Origin: Streptomyces sp. 8L
GTDB lineage: Bacteria; Actinomycetota; Actinomycetes; Streptomycetales; Streptomycetaceae
Assembly: GCF_020176795.1 (NCBI RefSeq)
Contig: NZ_JAIUKE010000007.1
Location: 1-43,661, forward strand
Direction: 5' to 3'
Length of the DNA stretch: 43,661 nucleotides
The notes under the pieces are model-generated. The model made no database searches, had not been told where the DNA came from, and worked only from the letters and a program-made list of their open reading frames with translations. Shown here in pieces: positions 3,871-22,025 of this stretch. Each line of letters begins with the position of its first letter. Position 1 is the first letter of the stretch. Position numbers and translations under genes: made by a program.

Positions 3871-3874
3871 GCGT

Positions 3875-5861: not shown

Positions 5862-7529
5862 TCAGGTCCCGGACAGCAGCCTTCGCGTGGTGGGGTGTCG
5901 GGTGTCCCGCAGGGCGGCCGCGGGAAGGTCTTCGACGACCCGGCCCTCCGCCATGACGAGGACCCGGTCCGCGACGTGGGGCACCAGGGCCATGTCGTGG
6001 GTGACGAACACCGAGGTGAGGTGGTGCTCGGCGCGCAGCCGCGCGAGGAGCCGCAGGATCTGGGCCTGGGCTGTGACGTCGAGATTGGTGGTGGGTTCGT
6101 CGCACAGCAGCACGGCGGGCGCGGCGGCGAGGGCGCGGGCGAGAGCGACCCGCTGTGCCTGTCCGCCGGACAGCTCCGCGGGCCGGAGGCCGGCCGTGCG
6201 CGGCGCGAGGCCGACGTCGTGCAGCAGGCGGACGATCGGCGCCGCCGCGTCCGCTTGCGCGTGCGGGCGGTAGCGGAGTGCTTCCGCGATCACCTGGCCC
6301 ACGGTCCACCGGGGGTTGAACGACGAGACCGCGTCCTGGAAGAGGAGTTGCACGGGAGCCGGGCCCGCGGACTCGGGCAGGTGCCGGCGTACGAGCCCCG
6401 TCGTGGGCCGCTGGTGCTGGGCGAGGCAGGAGAGCAGGGTGGACTTGCCGCATCCGCTCGCGCCGACGACGGCGACGGCTTCGCCACGTACGAGGGTCAG
6501 GCTGATGTCGTCCAGGGCCGTCACGGGGGAGTGCCTCCGACCGCGCGGCGCGTGGACGACACGCAGGTGTTCCGCCGTCAGGACGCGCTCCGGTGTCCGC
6601 GCCGTCCCTGCCTGGCTTCGCGGGGGCCGGCCCCGGCCCGGGGCGTGCGACGGCGCCGTGGCGCGCGGCGGTGGCGTGGCGACGGCGGCCGCAGCCGTTC
6701 CGGCGGTGTCGGCCGGGTGAGCGGGGCCCGGGGAAGTGGACTCCGGCCGGTCCGCGAGGAGTCGCCGGGTGAACGGGTGCCGCGGGTGGTGCACGACCCG
6801 GTCGACCGTGCCGGACTCCACGGCCTCGCCGTCGCACAGGACAGTGACGTGGTCGGCCCACCGTTCGACGACGCCGAGGTCGTGGGTGATCAGCAGGACG
6901 GCGCGGGCCCTGGTGTCCGCGCGCTCGCGGATCGCTCGCAGCAGCGCGGTCCTGGTCGCCGGGTCGAGACCGGTGGTGACCTCGTCGGGGATGCTCACCC
7001 ACGGGCGGCAGAGTTCCGCGAGGGCGAGGACGGCCCGCTGCCGCTGTCCGCCCGAGAGCTGATGGGCGTACGAGCGCAGCGGGTCGCGCCCGCCGTCCAG
7101 GACCAGCCCCGCCCAGCGCACCGCGTCGCGTGCCGCCTCGGGCCAGCCCTCGCGGCGCCCGTGGGCACGCAGCACGGCACGCGCCTGCGCACCGAGCGTA
7201 CGGCCAGGGTGCAGGGCGGTCGCCGTCTGCTGCGGCACATAGGACAGCGCCGCGCCCCTGAGCCGTTCCGCCCGCTCGGCGTGCGGTCCGATCAGCGGAT
7301 GGGACCGCCCGTCCGGGCCGGTGACCAGGGCCCGGCCCTGCGCCCGGACGCCGGGTGGCAGCAGGCCGGCCAGCGCGCGGGCCGTGAGGGACTTGCCGCT
7401 GCCGCTGGGGCCCACCAGGGCGTGGATCTGCCCGGGCCGCAGGGTCAGTGACAGTCCCTCGACCGCGGCCGAACCGTCGGGGAGCACCACCGTGAGGTCT
7501 TCCACGGACAGGCTGACGGAGGTGCTCAC
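5862..7529 (-). CDS. Opp/Nik-type ABC transporter, fused double ATPase
   Basis: The 555-residue protein joins two nucleotide-binding domains, the equivalent of OppD and OppF in one chain. It energises the two permeases encoded just upstream. Domain 1 has Walker A GPSGSGKS at about 40, signature LSGGQRQR and a Walker B region ending PDEVTTGLD. Domain 2 has Walker A GASGCGKST, signature LSGGQAQR and CDEPTTNLD. An Ala/Pro/Arg-rich linker joins the halves. GTG 7529 overlaps the stop of the permease gene by four bases (GTGA), indicating coupling. Uptake systems of this family carry peptides, nickel, or metallophore complexes such as staphylopine. Beside siderophore genes, metallophore uptake is likely but inferred. 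Confidence 0.88.
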   Translation of the reverse strand: MSTSVSLSVEDLTVVLPDGSAAVEGLSLTLRPGQIHALVGPSGSGKSLTARALAGLLPPGVRAQGRALVTGPDGRSHPLIGPHAERAERLRGAALSYVPQQTATALHPGRTLGAQARAVLRAHGRREGWPEAARDAVRWAGLVLDGGRDPLRSYAHQLSGGQRQRAVLALAELCRPWVSIPDEVTTGLDPATRTALLRAIRERADTRARAVLLITHDLGVVERWADHVTVLCDGEAVESGTVDRVVHHPRHPFTRRLLADRPESTSPGPAHPADTAGTAAAAVATPPPRATAPSHAPGRGRPPRSQAGTARTPERVLTAEHLRVVHAPRGRRHSPVTALDDISLTLVRGEAVAVVGASGCGKSTLLSCLAQHQRPTTGLVRRHLPESAGPAPVQLLFQDAVSSFNPRWTVGQVIAEALRYRPHAQADAAAPIVRLLHDVGLAPRTAGLRPAELSGGQAQRVALARALAAAPAVLLCDEPTTNLDVTAQAQILRLLARLRAEHHLTSVFVTHDMALVPHVADRVLVMAEGRVVEDLPAAALRDTRHPTTRRLLSGT

Positions 7530-8530
7530 AGCGCGGTGCCTCTCGCTCGGGCGGGTCGTGTGGCCTTCCGGGGAGCGATCACGACATTGACGGCCAGGAC
7601 GGTGACGACGATGCAGGCGGCGGGCAGGGCGACCAGCCACCACTGGCCGCCCAGCAGGTTGTCCTGACCGCGGCTCAGCAGATTGCCCCAGGTGGGCAGC
7701 GAGGGCGGCACGCCGAGTCCGAGGAAGCTCAGTGTGGATTCCGTCAGTACGGCGCTCGCCACCTCGAACACACTGACCGCCAGTACCGCCGGTGCCACCC
7801 CCGGCAGCAGGTGGTGGCGGAGCAGGTCGCGCCTGCGCGCGCCCAGGCCGCGTGCCGCGGTGAGATACGGGCGGATGCGCAAGGATGCGGTCTGTGCCCT
7901 GGTCGTACGGGCGACGCGCATCCAGCTGGTCAGCCCGATGGCGAGCACGACGCCCGTCACGCCCGGGCGGACGACCGCCTGGAAGGCGAGGACCACCACG
8001 AGCAGGGGCAGCGAGAGCAGGGCGTCGACCACCGTCGAGACGGCGTGGGCGGACGCGCTGCCCAGGTAGGCCCAGCCGAGGCCGACGGCCGTCCCGACGA
8101 GCGTGGCGACACTCGCGGCCGCGAGCCCCACGATCAGCGAGGTGCGCCCTCCGTACAGCAGCCGCGCCAGTTCGTCCCTGCCGAGCTGGTCGGTACCCAG
8201 GAGATGGCCGGGGGTGCCGGGAGGAAGCAACTCGCCCGCGACGCCGGTGGCCTGCGGGTCGTACGTGCTGAGCAGCGGCGCGCACGCGCAGAGCAGCACG
8301 ACGAGGGCGAGCAGCGCGAGGCCCGCCCACCGGCGTACGGGGATGTCCCGCACGTGCCACCGGCGCCGCAGGGAAGCACGGACCGCGTCCGTCCCGGGGC
8401 AGGAGTCCGACCCGCCCTCGGCCCCCTCCGCGCGGACGGGTGCGGGCGCCGTGTCCGCCGCGGTGCCGAGCGGCCGGGTTTTCGCCGCGCCGGGGCCGGC
8501 GGGACGCGGCACGTCACTCTCCCGCGCCAT
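7526..8530 (-). CDS. ABC permease, DppC/NikC-like
   Basis: The 334-residue inner-membrane permease belongs to the binding-protein-dependent family. Its N-terminal 60 residues are an unusually long, Pro/Ala-rich cytoplasmic extension. The first membrane span (around LALLALVVLLCACAPLL) and the DppC hallmark GTDQLGRDELARLLYGGRTSL follow. The coupling (EAA) region is around YLTAARGLGARRRDLLRHH, and the protein ends in a further membrane span. Its start overlaps the upstream permease gene by 17 bases and its stop overlaps the ATPase start, so the four transporter genes form one tight operon. Confidence 0.87.
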   Translation of the reverse strand: MARESDVPRPAGPGAAKTRPLGTAADTAPAPVRAEGAEGGSDSCPGTDAVRASLRRRWHVRDIPVRRWAGLALLALVVLLCACAPLLSTYDPQATGVAGELLPPGTPGHLLGTDQLGRDELARLLYGGRTSLIVGLAAASVATLVGTAVGLGWAYLGSASAHAVSTVVDALLSLPLLVVVLAFQAVVRPGVTGVVLAIGLTSWMRVARTTRAQTASLRIRPYLTAARGLGARRRDLLRHHLLPGVAPAVLAVSVFEVASAVLTESTLSFLGLGVPPSLPTWGNLLSRGQDNLLGGQWWLVALPAACIVVTVLAVNVVIAPRKATRPARARGTAL

Positions 8531-9578
8531 GGGGCACCTCCTCGGTCGGGGGAGCGGCGGCCTCGCCCGGTGCGGGCAGCGAGCGGCGCGAGGGACGCCC
8601 CCGCCCCTCGCGGGTGGCCGGCGAGAGCCAGGCGACGACCAGGTCCGCCAGCAGATTGACGGCCAGTACGACCGCGCCGGACAGCAGCACGACGCCGGTG
8701 AGCGTCGCGTAGTCGTGGCCCAGCGCGGCGTTCAGCGTGACGCGCCCCATGCCGGGCCAGCCGAAGATGACCTCGGCCGCGTACGAGCCGCCGACCAGGG
8801 AACCGAACGACGTGCCCACCCGCGCCACGAACGGGACCAGCGCCGTGCGCAGGATGTGCTGGACCGTGACGGTCCGCCGCGGCAGGCCCAACGCCCTCGC
8901 CGTCAGCACGTGTTGGTCGTCCCGGGCCTCCACCACACCGGTCTCCACGAGACGGGTGAACACCCCGAGGTGGTGGGAGCCCGCGAGGGTGGCCGCGGGG
9001 AGCACCAGATGCAGGGCCACCTGCCCGGCACCGGCCGGGACACCGGGCGTGCTCACACCGCCCGCGGGCAGCCAGCCGAGCAGCAGGGCGAAGACACCGA
9101 TCGCCAGCAGGGCGAACACGAAGGCGGGACAGGCACCGAGCACCAGAGTGAGCGCGTGCACGGCGCGTGCCGCCCACCGGCCCGCCCGATTCGTCCGTAC
9201 GACTCCGGCGGCGGTGCCGAGCACCAGGGCGAGCGCCGCCGTCAGGATCAGGGAGGAGCCGACGAGCAGCAGCGTCCAGGGAAGGGCCTGGCCCAGGACC
9301 GAGGCGACGGGCTCACCGGTGTCGTAGGAGAAGCCGAGGTTCCCGTGGAGCGCGTCCCACAGCCAGTGGAGGTACCGCACGGCAAGCGGCTGGTCGAGCC
9401 CGAGATTGTGGCGCGCCCTGGCGAGCTCGGTCGTGGTGGGGGCGATGACGGAGCGGGCGGTGAGCTGGGCGGCGGCGGCGTCGCCCGAGGCGATCTCCAG
9501 CAGGGCGAAGGAGATCCAGGACAGGGCGAGGAGCATCGGGACCAGTTGCAGCACCCGGACGGCGGCGAAGCGGATCAC
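8514..9578 (-). CDS. ABC permease, DppB/NikB-like
   Basis: The 354-residue membrane protein has the DppB/NikB layout: an N-terminal span (VLQLVPMLLALSWISFALL), a large extracytoplasmic loop with the family hallmark LGLDQPLAVRYLHWLWDALHG followed by GNLGFSY, then five more predicted spans. The EAA-like coupling loop is near TARALGLPRRTVTVQHILRTA. It probably pairs with the downstream permease to form the channel. The start is GTG 9578, 76 bases after the binding-protein gene. Confidence 0.88.
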   Translation of the reverse strand: MIRFAAVRVLQLVPMLLALSWISFALLEIASGDAAAAQLTARSVIAPTTTELARARHNLGLDQPLAVRYLHWLWDALHGNLGFSYDTGEPVASVLGQALPWTLLLVGSSLILTAALALVLGTAAGVVRTNRAGRWAARAVHALTLVLGACPAFVFALLAIGVFALLLGWLPAGGVSTPGVPAGAGQVALHLVLPAATLAGSHHLGVFTRLVETGVVEARDDQHVLTARALGLPRRTVTVQHILRTALVPFVARVGTSFGSLVGGSYAAEVIFGWPGMGRVTLNAALGHDYATLTGVVLLSGAVVLAVNLLADLVVAWLSPATREGRGRPSRRSLPAPGEAAAPPTEEVPHGAGE

Positions 9579-9654: not shown

Positions 9655-11250
9655 TCACTTGGTGTTCAGCAGCCAGTCCTGCGCGTTCTCGAACAGCCCC
9701 GCGCCATGGTGCCCGAGCAGTTTGTGCTGGATGCCCTTGAGACCGCTCGGCATGGCGTACACGGTGTCGAGGTACACCAGCCAGGACTCCGGCGGGTCGG
9801 TGCGGAACCGGGCCTGGAGGTCCCCGTAGGCCGCACGCCGGGCGGCGGTGTCCGTACTGCCGCGGCCCGTGTCGAGGTCCTTGTCGACCTGCTGGTCGCA
9901 GTAGGCTCCGTGGTTCCCCGTCCCCTGCGCGCCGCAGTGGAACGAGCTGAACACGGCGGTGTCCGGGTCGTACTGTGCCGCGTTGCCGCCCTGGAAGACC
10001 TCCTCCTCGGAGCGGTGCGAGGAAACGTACGCGGCGGGCTGGACCGAGGTGGTGACCCGGAAGCCCGCCTTCTTGAACTGGTTGGCGAGCAGGTCGTCGA
10101 TGTCCGCGCGCACCTGGTCGTTCGTGTAGGTGCTCAGCCGGAACGCGGCGGGTCTGCCGTCCTTCGTCCACACCCCGTCCTGCTTCTTCCATCCCGCGCC
10201 CGTCATCAGGTCCTCGACCCTGGGGAGGTCGGCGCCCGCGTGTTTCGGCAGGGACGTGTCGGCGTAGGGGCTGCGGTCGAGCGGGCCGTAGCCCGCAGCA
10301 CCGTAGCCGTGCAGTACGGAGGTGACCAGTTGGCCGCGGTCGATGGCGGCGTCCAGCGCCTCACGGACCCGCCGGTCCTTGAGCAGGGGGATGCGAAGGT
10401 TGTAACTCAGGGCGCGGAAGTCGGCGTTGCGCTCCCGCAGGATGGAGTGGCCGGAGATCTTCTGTGCCGCCGGAACCTCCTCCGGTTCGAGGAAGGCGCC
10501 GTTCAGCTCACCGTTGCGCAGCTGTACGAGACGCTGTGAGGCGTCGGGCACGAACCGCACGACGATGTTGCGGATGTGCGGCTTGTCAGATCCGTACCAG
10601 TACGTACTGGCCCGCAGCGTCACGGAGTCGCCCTTGCGGCGCGAGGTGATGCGGTACGGGCCGGTCCCGACGGGTTTGTCGTTGAACGCCGCGTCCCGGG
10701 TGATGTCCCGGCCCGCGAGGAGGTGCTTGGGCAGGATGCCCAGGCTCAGTGCGTCCAGCAGGCCGGCGAACGGATGGCTCAGCTTCAGCCTGACGGTGTG
10801 GTCGTCGGGGGTCTCCACCGTGTCGACGGCGTCGAACTGGGAGGCGGAGGGGGAGTTGACCTTCGGGTCGCGCACCTCCCCGAGCGTGTAGGCGACATCC
10901 GCAGCGGTGAAGGGTTCGCCGTCCTGCCAGCGCACCCCTTCGCGCAGGTGGAACGTGTACTGCGTGCCGTCGGGCGAGATCGTCCAGGACGTGGCGAGCG
11001 CCGGGACGATCCGGTTGTCGTCGCCGTGGCCGACCAGACCGCGGAAGACCATCTCCGTCACCGAATCGGTCTGGCTCTGCAACAGCGGGTTGAACGAACT
11101 CGATTCGAGCGGGTCGCCGTAGACGAAGGTGTCCGAGGCCTCGGGCGATCCGCCCGAACCTCCGGAGGTGCAGCCGGCGACGGTTGCCAGCGCGGCTGCG
11201 GCTGCCGCGCACGCCGTGGCGCGCCCGCGCCTCGAACGTCTGGTGTTCAT
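9655..11250 (-). CDS. Extracellular solute-binding lipoprotein, SBP_bac_5 family
   Basis: This 531-residue lipoprotein captures the ligand for the Opp/Nik-type transporter. An Arg-rich N terminus, an Ala-rich hydrophobic stretch and a lipobox LATVAGC give lipidated Cys27. The mature part shows family-5 features: PALATSWTISPDGTQYTFHLR, VRWQDGEPFTAADVAYTL and GTGPYRI. The family binds oligopeptides, nickel-histidine or metallophores, and sequence alone does not give the ligand. Location between an MFS exporter and siderophore genes makes a metal-metallophore complex the first guess. No iron box precedes this gene or the MFS gene upstream. Confidence 0.88.
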   Translation of the reverse strand: MNTRRSRRGRATACAAAAAALATVAGCTSGGSGGSPEASDTFVYGDPLESSSFNPLLQSQTDSVTEMVFRGLVGHGDDNRIVPALATSWTISPDGTQYTFHLREGVRWQDGEPFTAADVAYTLGEVRDPKVNSPSASQFDAVDTVETPDDHTVRLKLSHPFAGLLDALSLGILPKHLLAGRDITRDAAFNDKPVGTGPYRITSRRKGDSVTLRASTYWYGSDKPHIRNIVVRFVPDASQRLVQLRNGELNGAFLEPEEVPAAQKISGHSILRERNADFRALSYNLRIPLLKDRRVREALDAAIDRGQLVTSVLHGYGAAGYGPLDRSPYADTSLPKHAGADLPRVEDLMTGAGWKKQDGVWTKDGRPAAFRLSTYTNDQVRADIDDLLANQFKKAGFRVTTSVQPAAYVSSHRSEEEVFQGGNAAQYDPDTAVFSSFHCGAQGTGNHGAYCDQQVDKDLDTGRGSTDTAARRAAYGDLQARFRTDPPESWLVYLDTVYAMPSGLKGIQHKLLGHHGAGLFENAQDWLLNTK

Positions 11251-11351: not shown

Positions 11352-12665
11352 TCAGCCCGTGTCGGCCCCTGCGTCGCCGGCCTTCGCCGGCGGCTGCACC
11401 GCGTCGGCCGCCCCACGGCCCGGCCGGCCGGTTCCGGTCTCCGGCACGTACCGGATCAGCAGGAACGCGACGACCGCCGCCGAGACCGCTGTGAACGCGA
11501 AGGACGAGGCGTACCCCAGCTGGGCCGCAAGCAGGGCGAACAGAAGGGGGCTCAGGGTCTGTCCGCCCTGCCCGGTGAACCGCCACAGGCCCAGGAACAT
11601 CCCGCGTCCCTCCGCCGGGGCCACGTCCGCCCCGACCGTCTGGATGGAGCCGCCGGTCAGCGCCTGCGCGGCCACTCCGACGAGGAAGAGGACCACGTAC
11701 CAGAACAGGGAGAGGTGGAACAGGGCGGAGGCCGCCAGCGCGCACATGGCCAGCGCCACACCGGTGAAGCCGGGAACCATGGTGCGCTTGCGTCCGTAAC
11801 GGTCCATCAGCCACCCGCTGAGGAACCCGATGGGCAAGGTGATGGCGGCGGCGGCGGTCGAGAGATAGCCGATCTCGGCGGGCCCGAGGCGGTAGGCGAA
11901 CGCCGCGTACAGGTGGAGCAGGTCGGCCTGTACGGGTCCGCGGGTGAGGCCCGCGAACAGGGCGACGCCGAAGTACACGAGCCGCGGCAGCACGATACGG
12001 CGCAGCATCGCGATCCGGCCGCCCCGCGGCCGGCGCACCTCGCTCCGCTCGCGTCGCGGGGTGTCCTGCGCGAAGAGGTAGGCGGGGACGAGGGCGGCGA
12101 TCGCCAGCGCGCCGTAGGCGACGAACGGCGCCCGTGCCCCGCCGCCGCTCGCGAGGAACCCTCCTACCAGGGGGCCGGCCAGCTTGCCCGAGTTGTTCAT
12201 CCCGAACAGCCAGCTGACCTCGCGTCCGCGCCGGTTCGCCGCGGCCCCGTGCGAGATCGCCGCGAGGCGCGCCATCAGCCACATCTGCGCGGCGACCCCG
12301 TCGAAGAACCTCAGTACCAGGAGTGTTCCGAAGGAGTGGGTGAACACCACAGCGAACGCCATCAGCGCGGTCAGCACCGGCCCGCCGAGGAGTACCGCGC
12401 GCCGTCCGAACCGGTCGATGAGCCAGCCGGACGGTACGGTGCCCGCGAGGTTGCCCAGGACGAATGCCGTGACGACGCCACTGGCCGAACCGAAGCCGAC
12501 ATGGAACGACTTGGCCAGGGTCGGCACGGCGGGTACCGCGATACCCGCCCCGAGCGAGAGCACGAAGGCGGGCAGATAGGTGGAGAAGACCGCCTCACGG
12601 GAGAGGGGACCGCCGCCTCCCCGGGTCCGGTAACCCGCGGAACGCGGTATGCCATCCCTTCCCAC
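11352..12665 (-). CDS. MFS transporter, probable metallophore exporter
   Basis: The 437-residue major-facilitator protein has about 12 membrane spans. Two MFS loop motifs are visible: GWLIDRFGRRAVLLGG after span 2 and GWLMDRYGRKRTMVPG in the second half, a clear internal duplication. Export of the siderophore (as EntS does for enterobactin) is a reasonable assignment from context. GTG 12665 is preceded by AGGGGG with about seven bases spacing. It is probably the first gene of the five-gene operon running down to the double ATPase. The C-terminal tail is Gly/Ala/Pro-rich. Confidence 0.82.
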   Translation of the reverse strand: MGRDGIPRSAGYRTRGGGGPLSREAVFSTYLPAFVLSLGAGIAVPAVPTLAKSFHVGFGSASGVVTAFVLGNLAGTVPSGWLIDRFGRRAVLLGGPVLTALMAFAVVFTHSFGTLLVLRFFDGVAAQMWLMARLAAISHGAAANRRGREVSWLFGMNNSGKLAGPLVGGFLASGGGARAPFVAYGALAIAALVPAYLFAQDTPRRERSEVRRPRGGRIAMLRRIVLPRLVYFGVALFAGLTRGPVQADLLHLYAAFAYRLGPAEIGYLSTAAAAITLPIGFLSGWLMDRYGRKRTMVPGFTGVALAMCALAASALFHLSLFWYVVLFLVGVAAQALTGGSIQTVGADVAPAEGRGMFLGLWRFTGQGGQTLSPLLFALLAAQLGYASSFAFTAVSAAVVAFLLIRYVPETGTGRPGRGAADAVQPPAKAGDAGADTG

Positions 12666-13120: not shown

Positions 13121-15064
13121 TCAGGTGCGCGCGCCCGACCACGCCTCCCAGAGCCCCGCGTACACGCCGCCCGCGCCCACCAGTTCGTCGTGGGTGCCCG
13201 ACTCGGCGATACGGCCTTCCTCCAGCACGACGACGCGGTCGGCGCGGACCGCCTGGGTGAGGCGATGCGCGACCACGAGGGCCGTACGGCCGCGGAGGGC
13301 CCGCTCGGCCGCCGCCTCCAGGACCCTGGAGCCCGCGCTGCCGGCCTCCGCGGTGGCCTCGTCCAGTACGGCCACGGGCGGATCGGCGAGCACCAGGCGG
13401 GCCAGCGCCAGTTGCTGGGCGCGGATGGGGTCCAGCCTCAGGCCGGCCTGGCCGACCTTGGTGTCCAGGCCGTCGGGCAGGTTCTCCGCCCAGCTCCGGG
13501 CCCGGACGGTGTCCAGCGCCGCCCACATCTCGTCGTCCGTCGCGCCGGGGCGGGCCAGCCGCAGATCGTCGCGGAGCGGACCCGCGAACACGTGCGTCTC
13601 CTGGCTGATCAGGGTGATCGTGGTGCTCACCTCCGCGGCGCGCAGGCTCTCCAGCGGGCGGTCGCCGAGGAGGACCCGGCCATGGGCGGGCCGGTGGATG
13701 CCGGTGAGGAGGCGCGCCAGTGTGCTCTTGCCCGCGCCGGAGGTGCCGACGAGGGCGACCCGTTCGCCCGCCGCGAGGCGCAGATCGATGTCGTGCAGCA
13801 CGGGGTGCCCGGGAACGTAGGCGTGCGTCACACCCTCCAGTGCGACCGGGATGGCGCCGGAGCCGACGGGGGAGGGGCGTTGAGACGGCAGCGGTGTCGC
13901 CCCTTCGCCGGTGCGTGCGCGCGCGAAGTCGCCGTCGCCTGCCGCCGCGCCGTCCGCCGCCTGCGGGGCAGCGGACTCGCGGGCGGACGGGGCGCCGGGG
14001 GAGGGCGCCAGGCCGGCCTCCCGCGCGTCGGGATCGTCCAGGGTCGTCAGGCCCACCAGGCGGTTCGCCGCCGCACCTGCCGACTGGACCTCGTCGAAGG
14101 ACGACAGCAGCCCGTTGACCGGCTCGAAGAGCTGATGGAAGTAGAGCGCCGCCGCGCTCGCCGTGCCGAGCGGCACGTCCCCGTCGCGGACGAGCAGCCA
14201 GCCGATGGCGAGCAGGGCGCTCAGCCCCGTCCACTCGGCGCCGTTCAGCTTCCCGAAGAAGCGGGTGCCGATCTGCGTGGCGCGCAGGGCGAGGTCGCGT
14301 GAGCGGCGTGAGCGGCTGCCCACCAGTTCCAGCCGGTCCTTCTCCAGGCGGAAGGCGCGCACGGTGGGCGCGCCCTCGGTGGACTCCAGGATGGCCCGGG
14401 TCTGCTCCCCGAGCGCGAGCCGCTCGGCCACCCGCACCGGCCGGGAGGTCCTGCGCAGCCAGCGCACCGCCACCACCTGCAAGGGCACGACGAGCAACGA
14501 GGCCGCGGCGAACCGCCAGTCGAGGACGATCAGCGCGACGAAGGTCAGCGCGACCTGGAGGACGGAGCTCGCGAGCTGGGGGACCAGGGAGCGCACCGCG
14601 TCCGCCAGTACGGAGACGTCGTTGCTGACCCGCGAGACCAGGTCGCCCGCGCCGGAGCGCTCCAGACGTTCCGTCGGGACGGCCAGCGCCCGGCCGAGCG
14701 CGCTCTCGCGCACCCCGGCCAGCAACTCCTCGCCGGTGCGGGCCACCAGGGCGCCGCCCCACCCGGTCAGGACCGCCTGTGCCAGGCAGGACGCCGCCAC
14801 CAGGGCGGTCGGTCCTGTGATCGCCGAGACGGCGTGTCCGCCCTGGGCGACCACGTCGATGATGCGGCCGAGGGCGCGCGGCACGAGGAGCCCCGCGACC
14901 ACGTTCGCCACGGTGACGAGCAGGGCGAGGAGCGGACGCAGCGGGGCCCGGCGCAGCCGGGCGACGAGTTCGGCGCGCGTCTCGCGAGCCGTCGCCGTGG
15001 GCAGCAGGTCCGTCGCCCGGATGCTGACGGGCGCCGGGCCCCGCGCGGTGACCTGGTTGTTCAT
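13121..15064 (-). CDS. Heterodimeric ABC transporter subunit (IrtB/YbtQ-like), degenerate signature
   Basis: The 647-residue protein has an exporter-type fold: an N-terminal six-span membrane domain and a C-terminal ATPase. Such pairs import ferric siderophores in mycobactin (IrtAB) and yersiniabactin (YbtPQ) systems, although they look like exporters. Walker A GTSGAGKST (about 437-445) and Walker B VAVLDEAT are intact. The ABC signature, normally LSGGQ, instead reads LDPIR in LRLDPIRAQQLALAR. A roughly 60-residue Ala/Pro/Ser-rich insert separates the membrane and ATPase domains. ATG 15064 overlaps the partner's stop by four bases (ATGA), so the two are translationally coupled. Iron control is likely through the box at 16965. 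Confidence 0.9.
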   Translation of the reverse strand: MNNQVTARGPAPVSIRATDLLPTATARETRAELVARLRRAPLRPLLALLVTVANVVAGLLVPRALGRIIDVVAQGGHAVSAITGPTALVAASCLAQAVLTGWGGALVARTGEELLAGVRESALGRALAVPTERLERSGAGDLVSRVSNDVSVLADAVRSLVPQLASSVLQVALTFVALIVLDWRFAAASLLVVPLQVVAVRWLRRTSRPVRVAERLALGEQTRAILESTEGAPTVRAFRLEKDRLELVGSRSRRSRDLALRATQIGTRFFGKLNGAEWTGLSALLAIGWLLVRDGDVPLGTASAAALYFHQLFEPVNGLLSSFDEVQSAGAAANRLVGLTTLDDPDAREAGLAPSPGAPSARESAAPQAADGAAAGDGDFARARTGEGATPLPSQRPSPVGSGAIPVALEGVTHAYVPGHPVLHDIDLRLAAGERVALVGTSGAGKSTLARLLTGIHRPAHGRVLLGDRPLESLRAAEVSTTITLISQETHVFAGPLRDDLRLARPGATDDEMWAALDTVRARSWAENLPDGLDTKVGQAGLRLDPIRAQQLALARLVLADPPVAVLDEATAEAGSAGSRVLEAAAERALRGRTALVVAHRLTQAVRADRVVVLEEGRIAESGTHDELVGAGGVYAGLWEAWSGART

Positions 15065-16836
15065 GCTGTCACCGCCGCCCGGTAGACGGAGTGGTCGCGG
15101 AGCAGATCGGCGTGGGCGCCGTCCGCCGCCACGGCGCCGTCGCCGATGAGGACGACCCGGTCGCAGTGGCGCAGCAGGATGGGGCTCGTGGTCACCAGGA
15201 GTGTCGTGCGTCCGCGGCGCAGCTCGCGCAGCCCCCGCGCGATGCGCGCCTCGGTCGCCGGGTCGACGGCGGTGGTGGGCTCGTGCAGAACCAGTACGGG
15301 GGCGTCGGCCGCGAGCGCGCGGGCCAGGGCGACCCGTTGGCGCTGACCGCCCGACAGCTGCCTGCCGCGCTCGCCGATCCGGCTCCCGGCACCGCCGGGC
15401 AGGACTGAGGCGACCTGGTCGGCGTCGGCCGCGGCGAGCGCCGCCGGTACACGCTCCGGCACGGCGGCGATCGCGACGTTCTCCTCGATCGTGCCGTCGA
15501 AGAGGTCGCCGTCGTGATCGGCCACGAGGACCGCGCCGCGCGCCGCGCTCAGGGACAGGGCCGCCAGCGGCTCCCCGCCCAGCAGAATCGCGCCGCCGTC
15601 CGGTGGCACCCGCAGGGCGAGCACGTCGACGAGGGCTGCCGACGCGACCGGGTCCGGCGCCACGACGCCGACCAACTCGCCGCCGCCGACGTGGAGATCG
15701 AGTTCCTTCAGCGGCCCGTGGGACAGGCCCGCCAGGGTCAGCCCGCCACGCCCGGTCTCCGGTGTCCCGTCGCCCGCGCCCCCGGTGAGCGCGTAGGGCT
15801 CGCCCAGCAGTTGCGCCATCCTCTTGGCCGAGCCCCGGGCCCGGGCGCGCAGGCCCACCGCCCCGGCGAACACGTTGCAGGGGCCCACGAGGAACTGCGC
15901 GAGGCCCACGGAGGACACGAACTCGCCCACGGACAGGCGGCCTTCCATGGCGAGCCGGGCCCCGAACCAGGTGATGCAGACGAGGAAGAGGCCGTTCAGC
16001 AGCAGGCTGACGCCCTGGTGGCCGGCGTCCCAGCGCGCCGCCCGCACGGTCGCGGCCAGGGCCGACCGGCTGGCTCCCCGGTAGCGCTGCTGCGCGGCGG
16101 CCTCCGCGCCAAGCCCTTTGAGTACGCGCAGCCCGCGCACCAGATCGGCCGCCGTGGCCGTGGCCTCGGCCACCTGCGCCTGCTCCGCGCCGCCACGCGC
16201 CGCGAGGGGCTTGGACAGCAGTTGGGTCAGCACGAGCAGCGGGACAAGTCCCACCAGGACGACGAGGCCGAGCCGTACGGACGTGATCAGAAGAGCCGCG
16301 GCGCCGAAGGCGATCGCGGCGACACTGCCCGCGCCCAGGACCCAGAAGCGGTTGCCGAGTCCGACGCGCAGCGCGTCCGAGGTGGCGGTGGACAGCAGCG
16401 CGCCGGAGCTGAGGGAGGTCCGCTCGAATCCCCGGGCGTCGAGGAGCCGGGTGGCTGCCGCCATGCGCAGGTCGTGCGCCGCGCCCTGGCTGCCCTGCCG
16501 GTTCCACCGGCCGCCCAGGCGCATCGCCGCGGACAGGACCAGGAACACCGCGCCGAGCAGCCCGATCCACAGCGCCAGTGCGCCCGGACCCCCGCCGTGC
16601 AGCGCGTGGTCGACGGTGGCGCCGATCAGGACCGGGATCGCTGCCTCGCACATCTGGTGCACCGACGTGAACAGGGCGGCGCCCACGATCCACCGTCGGC
16701 GCCGCCGGAAGGCCCAGCGCAGCACGCCCTGCTGGGTGGGTTCGAGGTCCGTGGGGGCCCCGGCTGTGTCCCGGCCGCCGGGCGCCTCGGAGGGGCTGGT
16801 GGCCCCTTGTGTCCTCCGTGCCGCATCGACTGTCAT
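15061..16836 (-). CDS. Heterodimeric ABC transporter subunit (IrtA/YbtP-like), dead Walker A
   Basis: This 591-residue partner has the same architecture: a six-span membrane domain followed by an ATPase domain. Its signature LSGGQRQRVALAR is canonical, but the Walker A position reads VAPDPVASAALV, with neither the GxxGxGK frame nor the lysine. Walker B ends LVLHEPTTAVD, with His where Asp is normal. It therefore cannot hydrolyse ATP by itself and must rely on the 13121-15064 subunit. It has no N-terminal FAD (siderophore-interacting) domain of the kind found on IrtA. It is the first gene of the pair, 129 bases from the iron box at 16965. Confidence 0.9.
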   Translation of the reverse strand: MTVDAARRTQGATSPSEAPGGRDTAGAPTDLEPTQQGVLRWAFRRRRRWIVGAALFTSVHQMCEAAIPVLIGATVDHALHGGGPGALALWIGLLGAVFLVLSAAMRLGGRWNRQGSQGAAHDLRMAAATRLLDARGFERTSLSSGALLSTATSDALRVGLGNRFWVLGAGSVAAIAFGAAALLITSVRLGLVVLVGLVPLLVLTQLLSKPLAARGGAEQAQVAEATATAADLVRGLRVLKGLGAEAAAQQRYRGASRSALAATVRAARWDAGHQGVSLLLNGLFLVCITWFGARLAMEGRLSVGEFVSSVGLAQFLVGPCNVFAGAVGLRARARGSAKRMAQLLGEPYALTGGAGDGTPETGRGGLTLAGLSHGPLKELDLHVGGGELVGVVAPDPVASAALVDVLALRVPPDGGAILLGGEPLAALSLSAARGAVLVADHDGDLFDGTIEENVAIAAVPERVPAALAAADADQVASVLPGGAGSRIGERGRQLSGGQRQRVALARALAADAPVLVLHEPTTAVDPATEARIARGLRELRRGRTTLLVTTSPILLRHCDRVVLIGDGAVAADGAHADLLRDHSVYRAAVTA

Positions 16837-17028: not shown

Positions 17029-17183
17029 GGGAGAAGGCACCGTCGACCGGGAGAAGCGTCTGAAGTGACGGGCGGGGCCCGCCCGGTAGGATGCGCGCCC
17101 CGCCCGCACGGCCCGGCCCGAGGTCCGGTGTCCGGCGGTCAGGGACGCGAGGGACGAATCCACCGAACGATCCAGGAGGTCTG

Positions 17184-17864
17184 ATGCGGGTCCATGTCAC
17201 ACCGGAGGTCCGAGCACTGGGGCTGCACCACGTCAGGGTCTGGCGGCTGTCCTCGGACCGCCCGCTGCTCGCCGACGACGGCCTGTCGGCCGACCGTGTG
17301 CGGGCCCTGTACGACGACGCGTCACCGCTGCCCGAGGGATATCGCAAACTGCTTGCCGAGCTGGGCCACCCCGACTCCGTCCCCGCGGGGGAGCGGCTCA
17401 GGGAACTCGTACGCACCCGGGGCTTCGGCTCGCACGGAGCCGTCGTCGATGCGGTCACCGCGGCCACCCTGCGGTACGGCGCCGGGATCGGTCTCCACCG
17501 CCCCGGCCCCGCAGGGCCGGGTCCGCTCGTGGTGGCCAGGGCGGCGGGCGGCGAACGCATCGTGCCCGCCTTCTCCACCCGCTCGAAGCCGGTGCCCGCG
17601 GGCGACCTGGTGTACGGACTGCGCGCGGCCGACGGCACGTTCGAACCTTTCGCCTGGCTCGGCCGGCGCGACTGTGACGCGGCCGACTGGCAGCTGCGGC
17701 CCGACGACACCGAGGCGCTGGTGGTCGTGCTGGGCTGCCCGGGGCAGGGCGCCGACCACTCGGACGCGATCGGGCAGACTCTCCGGGACGTCCTCGCCGA
17801 GGCGCGTCCCGACGTCGTGTTCGAGGAGGTCACGACCGAGGAGGCGACGACTGAGGAGAGGTGA
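17184..17864 (+). CDS. B3/4-domain protein (PheT tRNA-editing-domain-like)
   Basis: The 226-residue soluble protein resembles stand-alone B3/4 domains, the fold that forms the editing region of the phenylalanyl-tRNA synthetase beta chain. Supporting stretches are SHGAVVDAVTAATLRYGAGIG (about 87-107), where family members have a VDxYNxxSLRxxLPxG-like helix, and VPAGDLVYGLRAADGTFEPF. The role of free B3/4 proteins is not well known; editing mischarged tRNA or amino-acid binding are possibilities. AGGAGGT precedes ATG 17184. It is divergent from the ABC pair with an iron box between, and followed by a strong terminator. A part in metallophore assembly or in coping with a non-protein amino acid is conjecture. 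The C terminus (TTEEATTEER) is repeat-derived. Confidence 0.6.
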   Translation: MRVHVTPEVRALGLHHVRVWRLSSDRPLLADDGLSADRVRALYDDASPLPEGYRKLLAELGHPDSVPAGERLRELVRTRGFGSHGAVVDAVTAATLRYGAGIGLHRPGPAGPGPLVVARAAGGERIVPAFSTRSKPVPAGDLVYGLRAADGTFEPFAWLGRRDCDAADWQLRPDDTEALVVVLGCPGQGADHSDAIGQTLRDVLAEARPDVVFEEVTTEEATTEER

Positions 17865-17895: not shown

Positions 17896-17946
17896 ACACC
17901 GGCGCGTGCGCCGCGCCCGGCCGCTGCCCTTCCCGCGGCCGTGGCG

Positions 17947-18464: not shown

Positions 18465-18481
18465 TTGACGCGTGCCGATAA

Positions 18482-18500
18482 TTAGGTAAGCCTACCCTAA
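18482..18500 (+). promoter_or_regulatory. Iron box upstream of the SznF-like gene
   Basis: TTAGGTAAGCCTACCCTAA differs from the consensus iron box at three positions and keeps both TTAGG/CCTAA ends. TTGACG (18465-18470) with TAAGCC sixteen bases later gives a promoter whose -10 lies in the box. The SznF-like start is 92 bases downstream. Confidence 0.88.
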
Positions 18501-18591
18501 GTCACGTCGGGTGGAACGTCCCCCAGGCCGCGGCCTGTCCCGCGTGACCGCCCTCAGGCCACACCCGGCCCCAATCCCTCGGGAGGTTTCC

Positions 18592-20004
18592 ATGTCCCTG
18601 GAGCATGCGGAGATACTGGACGGGCTCGATCCGTCCGACACCAACGGCATCGTCAAGGCGTTCGCGGCCAACACCGCGTTCCGGGCGGCCGAATGGGAGG
18701 AGCTGACCACAGAGGAGAACCCCTACCGGCGCCCGGTGCGCCCCGACGACCTGGCCTGGCTCGACTACAGCAAGCCGATGCCCGTCGCCAAGGCGCTCAA
18801 GCTCAGCGCCCTGCTCGGCCACCGCATGCTGCGCAACGTCTACGACAGCGATCTCCTCTACCTGCCGCCCGTCGCCGGGGGCCCCGCGGAGCAGGACGGC
18901 GCCGCCTTCTACAGCACGCGCAACCGCATCCTCTCCGCGCTCGCCGCCCCGGTGCTCGAACAGCACCTGTTCACCCTGCTGGAGGCCGAACGCAAGCCGC
19001 TCGGCGGCACCAGCCTCGGACACCTGGAGCAGGAGGTACGGGAGACCTACGAGCGCCGGACCGCCGAGCCCGGCGCCGCCTTCCGCGCCGCGCTGTCCAC
19101 GCAGGACCGCAAAGCCTCCGCGACGTTCGTCATGCTGCAGCTCAGCGCCTACCTGCCCGCGGCCCACGCGGCGGCGGGACGGGCCGCGCTCGGCGAGTTC
19201 GACGTCGCGCACCCGGGCGGACGCCTCCTCCTCCTCGACGACTACCGGGACTGGGCCGACCTGCACGAAACGTACCGCGCGCTGCTCGACGGCGCCGGCC
19301 TGAAGCCCACCGCGGCGGCCTACTGGCAGCTCTACCTGGGTTCTTCCCTGGCTCGCGGCAACCACCTGCACTGGCTGGGCCGGAACCGGGAGACCTACCC
19401 GGAGTTCCTGGGCGCGCTGGTCCACCACAAGCTCGACGAGGCCGTCACCGGCCCGCGTTTCCGCGATGTCTTCGAGGACGGACTCGGTGTGCACACCGAC
19501 CTGTTCACCCGGCTCGGCTCGGGCACGACCGCCGACTCCCTGGCGGAACTGACGCGGCGTCTGGCGGCCCCGCTCGAACGCCAGTGGGGCCCGAGTGCCA
19601 TCGAGCGCTTCCACCAGGGCTTCGCCGACGCGCGCTGGTTCGCCGAGCTCTGGGACGACGACCTGGCCCAGCAGCTGACCTGGGCCGACGCCATCCCCCT
19701 GCACCAGGAGAAGGCGGAGCGCATCAACGCCCACATCCAGGAGAACAACATCCAGGTCGACCTCGACACGTTCGTGGAGAGCAACGAGGAGACCTCGACC
19801 ACGCACGTGCACGACGAGCACCGCCTCGTGATGATCGAGCGCGGCGACATGCACTTCTGGAACAACGTCACCCACAAGGTGGAACTCCACGAGGGCGACA
19901 AACTCCTCATACCGGTGACGCGGCTGCACGGCTCCACGGTGCTCTCCGGCGAGTGCACCTACCACCAGCCGATCATCCCGGAAGAGATGTACCAGCGGTT
20001 CTGA
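18592..20004 (+). CDS. SznF-like N-N bond-forming enzyme: helical, haem-oxygenase-like and cupin domains
   Basis: The 470-residue protein matches SznF of streptozotocin biosynthesis (about 471 residues) in length and domain order. A N-terminal helical region includes ENPYRRPVRPDDLAWLDYSK (about 43-62). A haem-oxygenase-like diiron-oxidase (HDO) domain follows to about 390, then a C-terminal cupin. Cupin metal ligands are visible as H405-x-H407 and H446 (in RLHG), two residues from the SznF positions I recall (407, 409, 448). In the HDO domain, the H-x3-D-x2-H motif of SznF is not visible around residues 295-320, the first glutamate ligands also seem missing, and only LDDYRDWADLHETY resembles the second ligand helix. 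The cupin reaction (rearrangement of an N-hydroxylated guanidine to an N-nitroso product) may therefore remain while N-hydroxylation is lost. GGGAGGT precedes ATG. It is predicted to make a diazeniumdiolate amino acid with the next gene. Confidence 0.85.
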   Translation: MSLEHAEILDGLDPSDTNGIVKAFAANTAFRAAEWEELTTEENPYRRPVRPDDLAWLDYSKPMPVAKALKLSALLGHRMLRNVYDSDLLYLPPVAGGPAEQDGAAFYSTRNRILSALAAPVLEQHLFTLLEAERKPLGGTSLGHLEQEVRETYERRTAEPGAAFRAALSTQDRKASATFVMLQLSAYLPAAHAAAGRAALGEFDVAHPGGRLLLLDDYRDWADLHETYRALLDGAGLKPTAAAYWQLYLGSSLARGNHLHWLGRNRETYPEFLGALVHHKLDEAVTGPRFRDVFEDGLGVHTDLFTRLGSGTTADSLAELTRRLAAPLERQWGPSAIERFHQGFADARWFAELWDDDLAQQLTWADAIPLHQEKAERINAHIQENNIQVDLDTFVESNEETSTTHVHDEHRLVMIERGDMHFWNNVTHKVELHEGDKLLIPVTRLHGSTVLSGECTYHQPIIPEEMYQRF

Positions 20005-20098
20005 GCGGGCGCCGCACCGGCCCCGGGCCCACCGCGCCGCGGACTCCGGTGGCGGTCCTGTCAGTTGTCCGAATTCTCCGGGATGGAGTTCCCCTCTC

Positions 20099-20932
20099 GT
20101 GCACACTTCCACCGAAGGGCCCGACCGGCCCCTGGACTCACGCACGGCTCAGTCGCTGGAAGACTGCGTCATCGGTGACGTCCCCGCCTGGGGGCTGCCG
20201 GTCGCACACGATCTCGTCACCACCCTGCTCTCCCAGGAGAGCCCGTTTCCCTGCAGCTTCGCGGTGGCCGCCGCGAAGAAGCACTCGCTGCGGTTCGGCT
20301 TTGTCGAGAGCGCGCGCGACGAGGGCACTTGGGGCCCGCTCGTCGACATCCTCCGTGCCTACCTCGACTGTTACCAGGAGCTGGGCAGGGACACCTCGCT
20401 GGTCGTCTTCTTCCAGCCGGACGAGCAACAGGAGTCGTTGCAGGACTATTTCACACGATTCTGGTCGGTCCTGCAGTTCCTGCACGAGAAGGACCCGGAG
20501 CCGTGGCCCGCGGAGACCCCCACCGACCCCGAGGACACCTGGTGGGAGTTCAGCTTCGGCGGTACCGAGATCTTCGTCGTCTGCAACACCCCGGCGCACG
20601 TGACCCGGCTCAGCCGGCACAGCCCGGGCTTCATGATCACATTCCAGCCGCGCTGGGTGTTCGACGGGCTGGCGCCCGACTCCCCGCGGGGCGCCAAGGC
20701 GCGTGAGGTCATACGCAACCGCATCCGCCGCTACGACGGCATGGAGCCGGCGCGGGAGCTGGGAAACTACGGCGACCCGGCCAACCGCGAGTGGCGGCAG
20801 TACTTCCTGCCCGACACCCCTCAGGAACGCATGACGCGTTGCCCCTTCCACGCGGCGCGGCAGCGCGGCGCCGACGGATCGGAACAAGCCGGCGGCCCGG
20901 CGGCCCCTCCCCTCGCGGAGGAGATCGGATGA
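20099..20932 (+). CDS. YqcI/YcgG-family protein, candidate arginine N-hydroxylase
   Basis: The 277-residue protein carries the conserved blocks of the YqcI/YcgG family: FPCSFAVAAAKKHSLRFGFVE (about 49-69), WWEFSFGG, IFVVCNTPAHVTRLSRHSPG, FMITFQPRWVFD and GNYGDPANREWRQYFLPD. Members in natural-product clusters have been reported, as I recall, to act as haem-dependent N-oxygenases on guanidine nitrogen of arginine, and a member stands beside an SznF-like protein in graminine (gramibactin-type) clusters. The predicted step is L-Arg N-hydroxylation, handing the product to the cupin enzyme. It starts at GTG 20099 with GGAG ten bases upstream, 94 bases after the SznF-like stop, with no terminator between. 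The C-terminal 35 residues are low-complexity and carry CPFHAARQRG. Confidence 0.82.
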   Translation: MHTSTEGPDRPLDSRTAQSLEDCVIGDVPAWGLPVAHDLVTTLLSQESPFPCSFAVAAAKKHSLRFGFVESARDEGTWGPLVDILRAYLDCYQELGRDTSLVVFFQPDEQQESLQDYFTRFWSVLQFLHEKDPEPWPAETPTDPEDTWWEFSFGGTEIFVVCNTPAHVTRLSRHSPGFMITFQPRWVFDGLAPDSPRGAKAREVIRNRIRRYDGMEPARELGNYGDPANREWRQYFLPDTPQERMTRCPFHAARQRGADGSEQAGGPAAPPLAEEIG

Positions 20933-21012: not shown

Positions 21013-21071
21013 CCGGCTCCCACCGTACCCCGCGGCACCGCGCACACCGCACGGGAACAGAAGAGGCGTGC

Positions 21072-21488: not shown

Positions 21489-22025
21489 TTGTCCGACCAC
21501 GACAGCGCACCCGCCAGCGGCACTGTGGCGCGTCGCGTCTCCGACACCGCCTTCCGGCGGGCGATGGCCGCGGTGGCCACGCCCGTCTCCGTCGTCACCA
21601 CCATGGAAGGGGAGATCCCCTACGGCGCCACGGTGAGCGCGTTCGCCTCCCTGTCGATGGACCCGCCGATGGCCATGATCGCGCTCGACGAGAAATCCGG
21701 ACTACTCGCCGCTCTTCGCCGTACCCATCGCTTCGCCCTGAACGTGCTCGGCGCCGGCCAGCACGACCTGGCGGGTGTCTTCGCCCGCCGGGGCGGCGAC
21801 AAGTTCGCCGGCGTCGCCTGGCACGAGGAAGCGGGCCTGCCCCGCCTGGCGGGCGTCAGCATCTGGGTGGAGTGCGTGGTGGAGCAGTTCCTTCCGGGTG
21901 GGGATCACACCATCGCGGCGGGCCTGGTCACCGACGCCTGCGTGGGGGAGGACCTCGCGCCGCTCGTCTACCACTGCCACCAGTTCGGTACCCACGCCCC
22001 GACCGGTGCGGCCGCGCACGGCTGA
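21489..22025 (+). CDS. Flavin reductase (HpaC/ActVB-like, FMN-binding split barrel)
   Basis: The 178-residue protein fits the short flavin reductases that use NAD(P)H to make free reduced flavin for a partner oxygenase. Family features are FRRAMAAVATPVSVVTTMEG, GATVSAFASLSMDPPMAMIAL, RFALNVLGAGQHDLAGVFA, KFAGVAWHEEAGLPRLAG and VVEQFLPGGDHTIAAGLV. Start TTG 21489 has only a weak GAAAG upstream; GTG 21522 is an alternative. The cluster portion seen here has no flavin-dependent monooxygenase, so the partner may be outside the window, or reduced flavin may serve iron release or electron supply. It follows the YqcI/YcgG gene after a 556-base stretch holding only doubtful small frames. Confidence 0.82.
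   Translation: MSDHDSAPASGTVARRVSDTAFRRAMAAVATPVSVVTTMEGEIPYGATVSAFASLSMDPPMAMIALDEKSGLLAALRRTHRFALNVLGAGQHDLAGVFARRGGDKFAGVAWHEEAGLPRLAGVSIWVECVVEQFLPGGDHTIAAGLVTDACVGEDLAPLVYHCHQFGTHAPTGAAAHG

Follow-up and report, generated by a model that had tools for sequence, protein, structure and literature searches.

Genes and iron boxes of the locus

The stretch of DNA analysed here, referred to as the window, comprises 43,661 bases and is the whole of one contig (C7) of the genome of Streptomyces sp. 8L (G000). At its very start lies an NRPS gene, which is followed by genes for a salicylate synthase, several transporters, a protein that showed the predicted fold of the tRNA deacylase CtdA, an SznF-like enzyme and a YqcI/YcgG protein (Table 1). 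A first-pass annotation had described the SznF-like/YqcI pair as standing behind an iron box and beside the salicylate synthase, a heterocyclisation (Cy)-type NRPS and metallophore transporters, and our analysis confirmed each of these features. In addition, we found two more iron boxes and noticed that the NRPS gene is cut by the start of the contig. The box located about 90 bp upstream of the SznF-like gene, TTAGGTAAGCCTACCCTAA, showed 0 mismatches to the degenerate pattern TTAGGNNAGNCTNNCCTAA and 2-3 mismatches to TTAGGTTAGGCTAACCTAA, and no such site appeared in 100 shuffles with either of the two patterns.

Table 1. Coordinates of the annotated features in the window and the data on which each assignment rests
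Coordinates	Strand	Feature	Support
268..3828	+	NRPS: aryl-type carrier protein, Cy, A, carrier protein; ORF open from 55, likely start about 268	Pfam domains; Cy motif D-x4-D-x2-S and no HHxxxD; two carrier motifs; A-domain pieces read by hand as about DLFNLGLIH
4119..5507	-	Salicylate synthase	TIGR03494, 406.3 bits (cut-off 325.15)
5701..5719		Iron box upstream of the salicylate synthase	2-3 mismatches to consensus; none in 100 shuffles
5862..7523	-	Fused Opp/Nik-type ABC ATPase (two ATPase domains); start uncertain	PF00005, two stretches
7526..8530	-	Opp/Nik-type permease C	All NCBIfam equivalogs under cut-off
8514..9578	-	Opp/Nik-type permease B	All NCBIfam equivalogs under cut-off
9655..11250	-	Solute-binding protein family 5, candidate metallophore uptake	PF00496, 275.2 bits; NikA 168 bits and CntA 140.1 bits, both under cut-off
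11352..12665	-	MFS transporter, candidate exporter	PF07690
13121..14902	-	ABC exporter half 1; start uncertain	PF00664, PF00005; 63-72% identical, over 268-586 residues, to genes near the pair in loci L044, L051 and L043 of other genomes
15061..16836	-	ABC exporter half 2	PF00664, PF00005; 69-71% identical in L044, L051 and L043
16962..16985		Two overlapping iron-box matches in the divergent promoter of the exporter pair and the B3/4 gene	3 mismatches to consensus; none in 100 shuffles
17091..17864	+	Stand-alone B3/4 (CtdA-like) protein, predicted tRNA-Arg editing deacylase; may start at 17184	AlphaFold model, pLDDT 81.8; Foldseek E 1.8e-12 to CtdA 9mkl_A; VIA Z 19.9 to 9f7e_A over 211 residues
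18482..18500		Iron box upstream of the SznF-like gene	See text
18592..20004	+	SznF-like enzyme of the GrbD/ChmM type, 470 aa; cupin intact, HDO site lost	phmmer E 3.7e-46 to SznF 6m9r over residues 35-458; AlphaFold pLDDT 90.6; Foldseek E 9.9e-27 to SznF 6m9s_D, TM 0.86/0.88
20099..20932	+	YqcI/YcgG haem N-oxygenase (GrbE/ChmN/AglA-like), inferred to act on arginine	PF08892, E 1.6e-74, 250.7 bits (cut-off 27); AglA 9ubb, E 8.3e-34; cysteine of the FPC motif
21489..22025	+	Flavin reductase, possible electron donor	PF01613, 132.8 bits; chm also has a flavin reductase gene, ChmR (PMC11085572)
25141..25983	-	Siderophore-interacting protein (ferric-siderophore reductase type); likely but not surely part of the cluster	PF04954, PF08021; genes 35-41% identical lie near the pair in L043, L044 and L051

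The SznF-like and YqcI/YcgG proteins

Although the SznF-like protein gave no Pfam or NCBIfam hit at E 0.001, it is a homologue of SznF over its full length with the same predicted fold. SznF combines a diiron HDO site for N-hydroxylation with a cupin, and we compared the metal ligands of both sites, using ten ligand positions that in SznF itself all fell on the expected residues (E/E/H/E/H/D/H/H/H/H). The window protein keeps all three cupin histidines but only 0 (multiple alignment) or 1 (pairwise alignment) of the seven HDO ligands. The same picture was obtained for 34 of 34 aligned relatives (0-2 HDO ligands, 3 of 3 histidines), with the 35th, L077, being left out as a fragment, while 6 of 6 szn-type sequences keep all ten ligands. 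Two szn-type or distant hits (L008 and L012) and a partial plasmid hit from Pantoea were likewise left out of the alignment and the tree, and of two genomes that were present twice (L061 and L068, identical to G073 and G002) one copy each was used. Given the loss of the HDO ligands, we rejected the possibility that the gene encodes a true SznF (N-nitrosourea) enzyme.

In a phylogenetic tree, the window protein grouped with the SznF homologue encoded on the Tistrella plasmid NC_017966.1, which we take to be the tistrellabactin enzyme MobE and which keeps the cupin histidines and 2 of 7 HDO ligands, and the branch holding both was separated from the SznF side with 100/100 support, although the tistrellabactin protein is a long branch and ChmM and GrbD were not part of this tree. 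The YqcI/YcgG protein stayed below the cut-off of the model for the guanitoxin N-hydroxylase GntA (NF041366, 58.8 against 145 bits), while the cysteine of its FPC motif aligned with the FPC-like cysteine of AglA and was found in 32 of 32 sequences, window included. A YqcI gene accompanied the SznF-like gene in 31 of 35 loci, and in the other 4 the SznF-like gene lies within 4 kb of a contig end. These data support the proposal of the first-pass annotation that the pair is of the GrbD/GrbE type, to which we add ChmM/ChmN, with the refinement that, since the SznF-like protein has lost its own N-hydroxylating site, the YqcI protein is inferred to supply the hydroxylated arginine.

When compared to characterized systems, the chalkophomycin cluster of Streptomyces (chm; ChmL-ChmM-ChmN-ChmO-ChmR) likewise combines an HDO-dead SznF homologue with a YqcI/YcgG N-oxygenase, a Cy-type NRPS, graminine derived from arginine and a flavin reductase gene, but starts from N-hydroxypyrrole, ends with a PKS and yields a product that binds Cu(II) (PMC10849742, PMC11085572). 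The gramibactin (grbD/grbE) and tistrellabactin (mobE/mobF) clusters share the graminine enzyme pair. The other ligands of tistrellabactin are β-hydroxyaspartate and a hydroxamate and not salicylate (PMC10391617).

The assembly line and its linkage to salicylate synthase

The window's NRPS is cut by the contig start. Two contigs, C6 and C5, probably carry the rest, namely two graminine-like A domains, a serine A domain, a thioesterase and an aryl-AMP ligase, the latter on C5, although the joining of C5, C6 and C7 is inferred. A search of the genome with the S. triticagri PKS gave 29 matches, none of which lies on C5, C6 or C7. The graminine-like A domains do not carry the published proteobacterial graminine code DVHRTGLVAK (PMC10391617) but read DINYWGGIG (C6) and DINYWGGVG (C5), as deduced by hand from motif-anchored pieces without position 517, the last lysine being assumed. 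This code appears to correspond to that for hydroxyformylornithine, and hence graminine loading is likely rather than shown. A domains of the DIN..WGG..G type are present in 26 of 35 loci, 32 of which show any A domain.

We next analyzed whether salicylate synthase and the pair occur together in other genomes. Both share a contig within 30 kb in 9 of 35 named relatives from at least four lineages, whereas 0.24 would be expected. In Pseudofrankia, the synthase is fused to the Cy NRPS and the genes run on one strand through to YqcI and the SznF-like gene. P. eucalypti holds on one contig a salicylate synthase, a Cy NRPS with the same A-domain code as the window, the ligase, large NRPSs, exporters and the pair. 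However, it is not a gene-for-gene match, as we read only one DIN-type A domain and no serine code, and MacB-type permeases lie between. Iron boxes were found at both the salicylate synthase and the SznF-like promoters of Actinomadura DC4, at the SznF-like promoter of P. eucalypti and at the synthase fusion of Pseudofrankia. In contrast, 23 of 35 loci showed no iron box at 3 mismatches or fewer in the stretch examined, among them S. triticagri, S. niveiscabiei and P. spinosispora, which have the salicylate synthase.

Taken together, we consider it fairly likely that the locus is part of an iron-repressed NRPS cluster for a mixed-ligand siderophore, with the enzyme activities, the iron control and the product being inferred. 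In this model, the YqcI/YcgG haem enzyme hydroxylates L-arginine at Nδ and Nω, as inferred from ChmN, and the cupin of the SznF-like protein rearranges the product to graminine, a C-diazeniumdiolate amino acid, although no activity had been seen for ChmM in vitro (PMC10849742). Salicylate made by the salicylate synthase would be loaded by the ligase on C5 onto the carrier domain of the window's NRPS, whose Cy domain would form a phenolate-azoline, while the NRPSs on C6 and C5 would add graminine, serine and a second graminine, in an order that is not known, and release the chain by a thioesterase. The first-pass annotation had named a thiazoline, but thiazoline and oxazoline cannot be told apart. 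Phenolate-azoline plus two diazeniumdiolates would give six donor atoms for Fe(III), i.e. a hexadentate siderophore. Our literature searches, which rested mainly on titles and the beginnings of abstracts, revealed no such compound, and a survey in which graminine accounts for under 2% of detected regions names no salicylate–graminine hybrid in the parts of its text that we consulted (PMC12971057). JBIR-141, which we considered as a possible precedent, is described in a review with N-nitrosohydroxylamine, acyltetramic acid and oxazoline and a synthesis of a close analogue from threonine, alanine and glutamate, and no salicylate is named (PMC11503016). Salicyl-azoline siderophores of actinomycetes such as amychelin and cahuitamycin would share the phenolate-azoline arm, but their other arms are presumably hydroxamates.

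It is also conceivable, although in our view unlikely, that two neighbouring pathways are present, with the salicylate/Cy NRPS part (1-12665) producing a salicyl-azoline siderophore and the exporter/SznF/YqcI part (13121-22025) a separate graminine peptide. Indeed, the three closest relatives of the pair (75-78% identical) show no salicylate synthase beside it, one of them, SID10853, being on an 18 kb contig and S. parmotrematis having a partial match on another contig, and in the window the salicylate synthase lies on the other strand from the NRPS and the pair. Against this view stand the recurrence of the combination on one contig in 9 of 35 genomes, the co-directional run in Pseudofrankia and the iron boxes of both halves in the window and in Actinomadura DC4. 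Similarly doubtful is a salicyl-hydroxamate peptide, perhaps of the amychelin kind, in which the DINYWGG[IV]G A domains load hydroxyformylornithine and the pair makes something else or is idle. The ChmO A domain is also predicted to load hydroxyformylornithine (PMC11085572), and the genome contains three strong lysine/ornithine monooxygenase matches (contigs C510, C540 and C77), in addition to a second salicylate synthase (C357) and a second aryl-AMP ligase (C77).

However, none of these monooxygenase matches lies on C5, C6 or C7, and P. eucalypti and Actinomadura DC4 have the code but no credible monooxygenase (best E 3.0e-8 and 2.9e-9, partial matches). Moreover, among the A domains read in this genome, those of 12 loci out of 21 NRPS matches, only C6 and C5 show the code, and ChmO is nevertheless taken to insert graminine in a known product (PMC10849742, PMC11085572). 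Since chalkophomycin, the closest characterized actinobacterial product, binds Cu(II), we finally considered copper instead of iron as the metal, which appears very unlikely given the three iron boxes, the siderophore-interacting protein gene and the six donors that the predicted product would offer, as Fe(III) needs.

A predicted CtdA-like protein and a possible siderophore family

Unexpectedly, the gene at 17091-17864, which shares an iron box with the exporter pair, encodes a protein whose predicted model has over most of its length the B3/4 fold of CtdA, an enzyme that clears canavanyl-tRNA-Arg. A profile of 5 homologues found no CtdA chain among PDB sequences at E 1, and PF03483 matched only weakly (E 0.0036, under the cut-off) in one homologue only of four scanned. 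Homologues of this protein sit beside YqcI genes even without SznF, as seen in searches that scored only 7 or 8 first-look candidates per genome and may thus have missed others. While CtdA is linked to canavanine breakdown (PMC10018355), the gene studied here is linked to YqcI genes, and both are stand-alone genes connected to the handling of an arginine analogue. The protein probably deacylates tRNA-Arg mischarged with hydroxyarginine, and may protect the protein synthesis of the producer from this toxic arginine look-alike made along the way. No CtdA or tRNA deacylase in a biosynthetic cluster, nor an editing enzyme for hydroxyarginine, was apparent in the titles and beginnings of abstracts that we searched.

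More tentatively, the data are compatible with a widespread actinomycete family of NO-releasing salicylate–graminine siderophores loaded by an actinobacterial graminine code DINYWGG[IV]G, some members of which carry an iron-controlled tRNA-editing enzyme that removes N-hydroxyarginine from tRNA-Arg. This enzyme would be a self-resistance factor that guards translation against a biosynthetic intermediate.

Our analysis predicts a ligand combination that we found in none of the papers searched, in this strain and in named actinomycetes such as Thermocatellispora tengchongensis and Streptomyces triticagri. The HDO-dead SznF/YqcI pair together with DINYWGG[IV]G A domains gives a way to find more of these clusters, which a search for the code DVHRTGLVAK would miss. 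Since other graminine siderophores release NO (PMC6771848, PMC10391617), members in Frankia, a root-nodule genus, would be worth a look. The CtdA-like gene makes it directly testable how producers of arginine analogues keep them out of their own proteins.

The SznF-like protein and its YqcI/YcgG partner

To compare the SznF-like protein with characterized enzymes, we first searched it against SznF, with which it aligns from residue 35 to 458 at E 3.7e-46. Its AlphaFold model (26-row alignment, pLDDT 90.6, pTM 0.92) matches SznF crystal structures in ranks 1-12, with a best E of 9.9e-27 and TM of 0.86/0.88, while the next hits, HDO N-oxygenases, start at E 5.8e-5. We then inspected the positions assumed for the seven diiron ligands and the three cupin histidines of SznF, which fell on the expected letters in SznF itself. 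At these places the window protein keeps all three histidines and none of the seven diiron ligands by multiple alignment, or one by the pairwise alignment. The 34 relatives that were aligned keep 0-2 diiron ligands and all three histidines, and the SznF homologue of Tistrella mobilis plasmid NC_017966.1, which we took to be MobE (the tistrellabactins of this strain contain graminine; PMC10391617), keeps two and three, respectively. SznF, five szn-type homologues and three plasmid homologues, in contrast, keep all ten. The plasmid homologues, each followed by a Rieske protein gene, lie in Azospirillum, Methylobacterium and Gloeothece (loci L123, L124 and L125), and a Streptomyces SznF homologue (locus L014) represents the mirror case of the window gene in that it keeps all seven HDO ligands but has Q, A and Y in place of the three cupin histidines. 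In a 46-row maximum-likelihood tree, the side of the window protein, which includes the Tistrella protein, is parted from the SznF side with 100/100 support, although the Tistrella row is a long branch.

The partner protein is a YqcI/YcgG protein (250.7 bits) and is by sequence closest in the PDB to AglA (E 8.3e-34). A YqcI gene was found in 31 of 35 named loci, and in the four loci without it the SznF-like gene lies within 4 kb of a contig end. The FPC cysteine is present in 32 of 32 proteins, window included. The YqcI protein of S. triticagri moreover carries an MbtH-like motif at its C terminus, and a similar motif was seen in locus L073. The positions of these and all further features are listed in the table.

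Positions of the features described in the window, on other contigs of the same genome (C5, C6, C77) and in other genomes (L numbers denote loci, G numbers genomes)
Feature	Source	Position
Iron box upstream of the salicylate synthase	Window	5701-5719
Iron box in the divergent promoter of the exporter pair and the B3/4-type gene	Window	16962-16985
Stand-alone B3/4 protein gene, predicted CtdA-like fold	Window	17091-17864
Iron box upstream of the SznF-like gene	Window	18482-18500
SznF-like gene	Window	18592-20004
YqcI/YcgG gene	Window	20099-20932
597-residue ORF, coding-like GC pattern, no Pfam match	Window	39761-41554
First match to the S. triticagri graminine-type NRPS	Contig C6	C6:2928-5270
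Third match to the S. triticagri graminine-type NRPS	Contig C5	C5:41207-43093
Weaker iron-box match	Contig C5	L040:15013
Lysine/ornithine monooxygenase match	Contig C77	C77:36479
Salicylate synthase fused to a Cy-A NRPS	Pseudofrankia sp. BMG5.36	L132:5411-10726
Isochorismate synthase (DhbC-like) near the pair, with a 2,3-dihydroxybenzoate-type AMP ligase in the latter organism	Amycolatopsis acidicola and Actinomycetospora endophytica	L045:1009-2124 and L050:6314-7525, 7360-9183
SznF homologue with HDO ligands and without the cupin histidines	Streptomyces, L014	G225:C1:1901780-1902802
YqcI protein with MbtH-like motif	S. triticagri	L015:13661-14851
Iron box between the B3/4-type gene and FecCD	Thermocatellispora	L067:4010

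Iron boxes and the assembly line

Three iron boxes lie in the window, and none appeared in 100 shuffles. On contig C5 of the same genome a weaker match (4 mismatches, without a control) lies between an aryl-AMP ligase and a thioesterase NRPS. In other genomes, boxes sit at the SznF-like promoter of Actinomadura DC4 (1 mismatch), Amycolatopsis acidicola (2) and P. eucalypti (3), as well as at the salicylate synthase of Actinomadura DC4 and the synthase fusion of Pseudofrankia BMG5.36 (3 each). Overall, 12 of 35 loci have a box at 3 mismatches or fewer within the stretch examined, whereas 23 do not, and a scan of further stretches of P. spinosispora, S. niveiscabiei and Thermocatellispora added none at the salicylate synthase.

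Since the window is the whole contig C7, the assembly line is cut at position 1. When the graminine-type NRPS of S. triticagri was searched against the genome, the match on contig C6 ranked first (695.4 bits, 50%) and that on contig C5 third (467.4 bits, 47%) of 21 matches. C6 (10,069 bases) consists of two NRPS ORFs, while C5 ends in a C–A–carrier–thioesterase NRPS next to the aryl-AMP ligase (TIGR02275, 610.3 bits, under its cut-off of 723.55). Reading of the A-domain pieces at the presumed Stachelhaus positions, of which the last was not read, gave DINYWGGIG (C6), DVWHLSLID, serine (C6), DINYWGGVG (C5) and about DLFNLGLIH for the window. Among the A domains read in the twelve loci of this genome retrieved with the S. 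triticagri NRPS, only C6 and C5 show the DIN code. In P. eucalypti, a single contig holds a Cy NRPS with the window's code, a salicylate synthase, a homologue of the C5 ligase (53%), NRPSs whose best local matches are those of C5 and C6, exporters, and the pair. It is not a gene-for-gene match, as it shows one DIN-type A domain, no serine code, and MacB-type permeases. This makes it likely, but does not prove, that C5, C6 and C7 form one cluster.

The DIN-type A domains, which lie in 26 of the 35 loci, likely load graminine rather than hydroxyformylornithine. The ChmO A domain is predicted to load hydroxyformylornithine, yet chalkophomycin contains graminine (PMC11085572). P. eucalypti and Actinomadura DC4 possess such A domains and no credible ornithine monooxygenase (best E 3.0e-8 and 2.9e-9, partial matches). 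The window genome does have three strong ones, but none of them is located on C5-C7. One such lysine/ornithine monooxygenase match lies on contig C77 in a second salicylate-type NRPS region with Cys-like A domains and a second aryl-AMP ligase, and a second salicylate synthase (403.9 bits) is found on contig C357.

Salicylate synthase in genomes with the pair

We next asked how often the pair occurs together with a salicylate synthase. Of 35 genomes with the pair, 26 have a match to the window's salicylate synthase at E 1e-40, some of them partial or TrpE-like. Related species are not independent, but at least four lineages are involved, namely Streptomyces/Thermocatellispora, Actinomadura, Pseudonocardia and Frankia/Pseudofrankia. 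In Pseudofrankia BMG5.36, the salicylate synthase and the Cy NRPS are one 1,771-residue ORF, which is followed on the same strand by the ligase, giant NRPSs, and the YqcI and SznF-like genes, and several Frankia genomes show ORFs of 1,629-1,820 residues at their synthase match. S. triticagri, S. niveiscabiei and Thermocatellispora have a chm-like line (Cy NRPS, graminine NRPS, PKS, and an O-methyltransferase in the first two) with salicylate synthase. Against a fixed partnership stand S. parmotrematis, ICBB 8177 and SID10853, whose SznF-like protein is 75-78% identical to that of the window and in which no salicylate synthase was seen beside the pair, although the contig of SID10853 is only 18 kb and S. 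parmotrematis has a partial match on another contig. In Amycolatopsis acidicola and Actinomycetospora endophytica, the isochorismate synthase near the pair points to possible catechol–graminine clusters.

A gene with a predicted CtdA-like fold

Unexpectedly, the 257-residue product of the gene that shares its iron-box promoter with the exporter pair has no Pfam match even at E 10, but its predicted structure (4 rows, pLDDT 81.8, pTM 0.79) matches CtdA, a stand-alone B3/4 protein, with a Foldseek E of 1.8e-12 and a VIA Z of 19.9 over 211 residues at 2.9 A, ahead of the B3/4 region of PheRS at Z 15.0. A profile search of PDB sequences found no match to CtdA, which removes canavanine, an arginine analogue, from tRNA-Arg (PMC10018355). 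The gene is rare, being found in 6 of 392 genus genomes (E 1e-15), 2 of 297 family genomes (E 1e-8) and 1 of 394 class genomes, the window's own (E 1e-20). Of the 35 genomes with the pair, 4 have it strongly and 1 weakly, so most clusters lack it.

Among nine genomes in which we found the gene strongly, it lies within 8 kb of a YqcI gene in five (window, S. triticagri, Thermocatellispora, and the genomes G391 and G214). G391 and G214 gave no SznF-like match, and there the set is YqcI – amino-acid permease – this gene (in G214 by the like gene), the two loci looking like copies of one cluster. In S. niveiscabiei its contig is separate, but it neighbours the FecCD gene as in S. triticagri, and in Thermocatellispora a box (3 mismatches) also lies between this gene and FecCD. 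In the genomes G075, G181 (a 5.9 kb contig) and S. zagrosensis no YqcI was seen nearby. Within the genus sample, genomes with the HDO-dead SznF type carry the gene in 2 of 3 cases against 4 of 389 (p 0.0006, small numbers). We read this as protection of translation from hydroxyarginine, an interpretation that we consider about as likely as not; the shared fold does not show the substrate.

Taken together, the SznF-like/YqcI–YcgG pair in its salicylate cluster is real, and the first-pass annotation, which had predicted a diazeniumdiolate metallophore from this arrangement, is right in outline, with the product and the activities being predictions. While the chemistry of the pair is known from chm and grb, the combination with salicylate, its spread, the actinobacterial A-domain code and the CtdA-like gene are, as far as our searches reach, what is new here.
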